A stretch of DNA of 64,000 nt from Oscillospiraceae bacterium. GTDB lineage: Bacteria > Bacillota > Clostridia > Oscillospirales > SIG519. A program made the translations under genes and the position numbers. How positions within the stretch are numbered: position 1 is the stretch's first letter; each line of letters opens with the position of its first letter. Positions 16,442 to 17,354 of this stretch are shown piece after piece. Where the stretch lies: the NCBI GenBank assembly GCA_015067255.1, contig SVMS01000005.1, forward strand, positions 1-64,000. The letters are read 5' to 3'. Below the pieces are notes generated by a model. The model saw only the letters and a list, made by a program, of their open reading frames with translations, was not told where the DNA came from and ran no database searches.

Positions 16442-16478
16442 TAACTAATAAAGTGTTTATTTGATAAGGAGAATAACG

Positions 16479-17150
16479 ATGAAAAAATTTAAGTATTCCG
16501 TAGGCCCTTGGAACGTACACGAGGGAGCAGACGCTTATGGTCCTGCTGTAAGAAAAACTATCGAATTTGGCAAGAAGCTTGAAGAATTCAAAAAAATCGG
16601 TATTGATGCTATTCAGTTCCACGATGATGATGCAGTACCGGAGTTAAATGACTTAACAAATGAGCAAATCATCGCTCGCGCAAAAGAAGTTCGCTCTATG
16701 TTGGATAACAATGGCTTGGTAGCAGAATTTGTTGCTCCGAGACTTTGGATGGACGGTCACACAATCGATGGCGGATTTACATCCAATAGCGAAAAAGACA
16801 GAGAGTTTGCAATGTACAGAGCATATCGTTCAATTGATATTGCAAATACACTCGGATGCGATAAGGTTGTATTGTGGCTTGCAAGAGAAGGTACTCTTTG
16901 CTATGAAAGTAAAGACCCTGTTTTAGCAGTAAACAGACTTATCGAATCAATTAACAAGATGCTTGATTATGATAAGAACATCAAAATTTTGATTGAGCCT
17001 AAGCCCAATGAGCCTATTGATAGAAATGTTTGTCCTACAATGGGTCACGTTATGGCAGTTTCCGCTGCTTCTAACGATCCTTCAAGAGTAGGTGGACTTT
17101 TAGAGTCAGCACACGCTATTTTACGAGTGTTCATAACTTACCTCAAATGA
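16479..17150 (+). pseudogene. Class I xylose-isomerase-like protein, 3'-truncated
   Basis: 223 codons from the ATG at 16479 (GGAG, 7 bases upstream); relatives run about 310-390. The intact part is a TIM barrel: KYSVGPWNVHEGADAYGPA, IQFHDDDAVPE, VLWLAREGT and IEPKPNEP, the last holding a metal-binding Glu. LLESAHAIL corresponds to the second metal region. Similarity then stops and the frame ends RVFITYLK. The Asp-rich metal site of the C-terminal half is missing, so activity is unlikely. The break sits about 70 bases from the 3' end of tRNA-Thr. A deletion, or an assembly join, are both possible. It is co-transcribed with the aminotransferase. Confidence 0.75.
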
Positions 17151-17151
17151 T

Positions 17152-17196
17152 AGTAAAGAACCTCAGCACGCAATTTGCGTGTCGAGGTTCTTTACT
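17152..17196. terminator. Long hairpin at the 3' end of tRNA-Thr
   Basis: A 13-bp stem (17152-17164 with 17184-17196) encloses an inner CACGCAA/TTGCGTG stem. On the minus strand it directly follows tRNA-Thr and probably terminates it. On the plus strand it ends the truncated isomerase transcript. The last stem base overlaps the tRNA CCA end. No long T-run follows. Confidence 0.6.
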
Positions 17197-17271
17197 GGAG
17201 CTGGTGATCGGACTTGAACCGACGATCTGCTGATTACGAATCAGCTGCTCTACCGACTGAGCCACACCAGC
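17196..17271 (-). tRNA. tRNA-Thr(CGT)
   Basis: 76 bases with the CCA end encoded. The acceptor stem GCTGGTG pairs with CACCAGC, and the T-arm GTCGGTTCAAGTCCGAT is standard. The anticodon loop is TTCGTAA, giving anticodon CGT, which reads ACG. Confidence 0.95.
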
Positions 17272-17277
17272 GTATAA

Positions 17278-17307
17278 ATGAGGACTGTTTTAAGTCCTCA
17301 TTTTTTA
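17278..17307. terminator. Hairpin between tyrA and tRNA-Thr
   Basis: Stem ATGAGGACT / AGTCCTCAT with a TTTT run on the plus-strand side. On the minus strand it falls between the tRNA-Thr promoter and the tRNA, so it may be a leader hairpin there, or a weak terminator for the tyrA operon. Confidence 0.5.
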
Positions 17308-17325
17308 TGTATAATTCTGTTCAAT

Positions 17326-17354
17326 AATATACCATATTTTTAAAAGAATGTCAA
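17326..17354 (-). promoter_or_regulatory. Promoter for tRNA-Thr
   Basis: Minus-strand TTGACA (17354-17349), a 17-base spacer and TATATT (17331-17326). The start point near 17319 leaves a leader of about 48 bases before the mature tRNA. Confidence 0.75.

Follow-up and report, generated by a model that had tools for sequence, protein, structure and literature searches.

Pseudogenes that arise by 3' deletion are a known system in bacteria, and the 3' ends of tRNA genes are common targets of integrases. The gene described here codes for a xylose-isomerase-like protein and breaks off beside a tRNA-Thr gene in a 64,000-nucleotide stretch of an Oscillospiraceae bacterium assembly (GCA_015067255.1), called here the window and located on contig C5. 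It was compared with 60 related loci obtained from a scan of a genome collection. The closest relative, locus L014, carries a 344-aa isomerase (92% identical), of which residues 5-315 align to solved D-xylose isomerases (PDB 2xim; E 1.3e-40). The window protein matched the Pfam family AP_endonuc_2 (xylose isomerase-like TIM barrel) with 57.8 bits, above the cut-off of 31.1, over profile positions 2-163 of 249 only. With the equivalog model TIGR02631 (xylA_Arthro) it scored 114.2 bits over positions 8-219 of 382, being cut after residue 215, and even the full-length L014 protein (179 bits) stayed far under the cut-off of 447, therefore the latter is a divergent xylose-isomerase-like protein to which no substrate is assigned.

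The truncated isomerase gene and its relatives

The isomerase open reading frame encodes 223 residues ending in LLESAHAIL-RVFITYLK, and the sequence of the relatives is matched through residue 215 (base 17123), the last eight residues being unrelated. In tblastn searches, residue 215 was also the furthest end of the window isomerase matches in all 60 loci, and base identity with L014 ended abruptly after about 17120-17122. Homology continued beyond the break in 56 of the 60 loci; three end earlier at the locus edge and one carries an internal deletion of another kind. In 53 loci the match extends to the C-terminus of the L014 protein (residue 330 or beyond), and six run off the locus end, three of them past residue 216 (L016, L017, L052) and three before it (L069, L072, L073). 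The window's truncation point was not found as a protein end in any of the 60 loci. The initial annotation had described a broken gene, losing similarity after LLESAHAIL near 17122 and ending within about 50 bases of the tRNA-Thr 3' end, with the upstream aminotransferase and LacI control intact. These points agree with our measurements: the isomerase stop codon lies 45 bp from the 3' end of tRNA-Thr(CGT), and both upstream genes are full length (Table 1). A short form common to all relatives, named there as the refuting case, is ruled out by the 56 loci that go past the break.

The missing 3' part was sought in the own genome (97.61% complete as given, 54 contigs) with the full-length L014 protein as query; residues 1-216 were recovered and the remainder was not found. 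Among 59 genomes (the own and 58 of the same order), an isomerase match was obtained in 13: the own genome and 12 further ones, which at 23-29% identity were set aside as uninformative on the locus.

The window copy retains the segment aligned to the ETGH motif of xylose isomerases and has lost the FDQD-aligned segment and everything beyond, including the segment aligned to the last conserved aspartate of the solved enzymes. In xylose isomerase, these two motif segments and this aspartate hold metal ligands. The remaining protein is short of the final third of the chain and of the greater part of one metal site, and with that metal-ligand segment lost, the 223-aa protein is expected to be inactive.

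We observed separately that locus L071 (4001-4309) carries an isomerase gene from which about residues 61-313 have been removed in frame, with both ends conserved and a normal C-terminus; the metagenome-assembled genome RGIG379 contains both this deleted copy and a full-length copy (L019).

Table 1 Coordinates of features in the window around the truncated isomerase-like gene
Feature	Position	Strand	Remark
LacI-type regulator, intact, 337 aa	14034..15047	-	divergent from the operon; syntenic with L014
DegT/DnrJ/EryC1/StrS-family aminotransferase, intact, 397 aa	15248..16441	+	Pfam DegT_DnrJ_EryC1
Aminotransferase-isomerase spacer, 37 bp	16442..16478	+	oxidoreductase gene here in L014, none in the window
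Xylose-isomerase-like gene, truncated	16479..17150	+	codons 1-215 homologous, then 8 unrelated codons and stop
Similarity breakpoint of the isomerase-like gene	17120..17124	.	tblastn ends and base identity to L014
Junction stretch, 28 bp, origin unplaced	17124..17151	.	between break and palindrome
Imperfect palindrome, 22-nt arms	17152..17196	-	adjoins the 3' end of the tRNA, with which it shares the last base
tRNA-Thr (anticodon CGT), intact, CCA encoded	17196..17271	-	3' end faces the isomerase gene
Promoter-like site TTGACA-17-TATATT, upstream of tRNA-Thr	17326..17354	-	consensus match only

The tRNA-Thr side and the operon arrangement

The palindrome folds as a strong hairpin immediately after the tRNA CCA and is taken to be a terminator-like hairpin belonging to the tRNA-Thr unit; a terminator scan did not flag it, which counts against this reading. 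In its favour, a related hairpin, 82% identical and bearing a T-rich tail, was found on contig C1 of the genome (G000:C1:262-305). Rfam searches over the tRNA region and the C1 hairpin locus gave tRNA-Thr as the sole RNA family match. In locus L077 (180-310) the C1 hairpin is preceded by sequence ending in GGTCCGAATCCTGCCACTCCAACCA, which resembles a tRNA 3' half, and no RNA gene was called at L077 180-310 by ARAGORN or by Rfam at E values up to 0.1. Six promoter-like sites were observed in this region, where shuffled sequences gave 5.8 on average. A terminator-like stem with a T tail on the plus strand (17276-17303) lies just past the antisense side of tRNA-Thr, as if plus-strand transcription across the tRNA region needed stopping. 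The 28-bp junction stretch aligned locally no better than shuffles with the operon 3' flank of six relatives, and an exact match to a 24-base pattern from this stretch and its neighbourhood was not found in viral contigs.

In L014 the gene order is LacI (reverse), aminotransferase (residues 1-396 of the window protein 88.9% identical), oxidoreductase, isomerase and a PIG-L deacetylase-like remnant, followed by a tRNA-Pro on the opposite strand. The alignment of the window with L014 restarts 14 bp ahead of the isomerase start. An orthologue of the L014 oxidoreductase was sought in the own genome and six partial matches of at most 34% identity were obtained, the best-scoring at 30%. The lack of this gene in the window, in contrast to L014, counts in favour of a deletion. 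Since the aminotransferase directly precedes the isomerase in three of the 60 loci (L015, L017, L023), the absence of the oxidoreductase need not belong to the truncation event and may be an old alternative arrangement. The PIG-L deacetylase-like gene 3' of the full-length isomerase in L014 (5084-5381) is frameshifted with an in-frame stop, and an open form is present in L015, L023 and L028; as this gene is itself a remnant in L014, erosion at the 3' end of the operon is not confined to the window and seems to have occurred in two lineages, that of the window and that of L014.

The ten flanking proteins tested belong to the Pfam families TilS, DnaB, ribosomal L9, DUF2232, tocopherol cyclase, LacI, prephenate dehydrogenase, DAHP synthase, SIS with glutamine-amidotransferase domains, and an Era-like GTPase; from their domains we read the SIS/glutamine-amidotransferase protein as GlmS-like and the GTPase as Era-like. 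In four genomes to which the loci led, prephenate dehydrogenase showed 30-43% identity and was judged too distant for comparing the tRNA flank.

Timing and origin of the truncation

Isomerase codons 1-215 compared with L014 gave pS 0.74 and pN 0.055, the mark of past purifying selection, with pS 0.79 and pN 0.068 for the aminotransferase and pS 0.70 and pN 0.15 for LacI. For 22 of the other 59 loci, the numbers of amino-acid differences from the window protein and from L014 were about the same (for example 48 vs 52 for L015, and 66 vs 63 for L044), and the window side shows no surplus of changes. Low pN without such a surplus indicates a recent loss; by this measure selection acted on the retained part through almost the whole period since the window and L014 lines split, so the truncation, if real, is recent.

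A recent deletion, which probably took the 3' third of the isomerase together with everything up to the tRNA unit, explains these observations best, and we infer deletion as the type of event rather than insertion or inversion. On the window lineage, it would have removed codons 216 onward plus whatever lay between them and the transcription unit of tRNA-Thr. The junction would keep 28 bp of unplaced sequence, so that the reading frame meets a chance stop. Against this reading, the genomes compared all fall outside the genus and family of the window bacterium, the form of the locus before the event is not among them, and the isomerase-tRNA junction is known from a single assembly. A false join or a collapsed strain variant near 17123-17151 is rather unlikely. 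The absence of the isomerase 3' third from the assembly, its division into 54 contigs and the palindrome with 22-nt arms at the junction would all suit such an error, but the longest exact match of the junction elsewhere in the genome is 15 bases (17138-17152 with C5:66337-66351) and the C1 hairpin is only 82% identical; usual assembly overlaps are longer than such matches. For the stretch 17100-17320, the tRNA paralogue (89%), the C1 hairpin and short tRNA-like matches were found in the genome and no long repeat, making a repeat-caused false join less likely. GC content on both sides is also near the window mean of 0.358 (isomerase 0.400, tyrA 0.352, aroF 0.385).

The initial annotation had offered integration followed by imprecise excision or deletion, or else a wrong contig join; deletion fits and integration at the tRNA 3' end gains no support. 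That an element integrated at the tRNA-Thr 3' end and that its imprecise excision then removed the isomerase 3' part is quite improbable. Position is what speaks for it, the break being about 75 bp from the tRNA-Thr 3' end, but a hairpin separates the break from the tRNA end and the tRNA itself is intact. The duplicated tRNA-Thr 3' segment that the annotation had suggested looking for was searched genome-wide: apart from its own site, the tRNA 3' 22-mer occurs, with up to three mismatches, only in the paralogous tRNA-Thr(TGT) gene on contig C48. Neither an attL/attR duplicate at the tRNA gene nor an integrase gene or remnant nearby was found, the Pfam search gave no integrase family among the ten flanking proteins, and the three tyrosine-recombinase matches in the genome (the type searched) lie on contigs C7, C8 and C27, away from C5. 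Still less probable is a tRNA-Thr flank that serves the bacterial family as a hot spot for recombination or integration, with the isomerase cut by an element since departed. The 223-aa protein as a functional form is the least probable of all: its reading frame is uninterrupted and purifying selection has left its trace in codons 1-215, but this signal is mostly shared history, none of the 60 loci has the window's end, and the FDQD-aligned segment and the last conserved aspartate are gone.

A recent deletion would be an event of a known kind, ordinary gene decay, and its significance is small: it adds one further case of a recently truncated gene, here in an accessory operon for sugar metabolism in a draft genome. 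The isomerase gene should carry a pseudogene annotation or be checked against reads. With bacterial pseudogenes formed by 3' deletion it shares the sharp loss of homology, the chance stop, the selected 5' part and a lost part that is nowhere else, and it differs from them in its position beside a tRNA gene and in nothing more.
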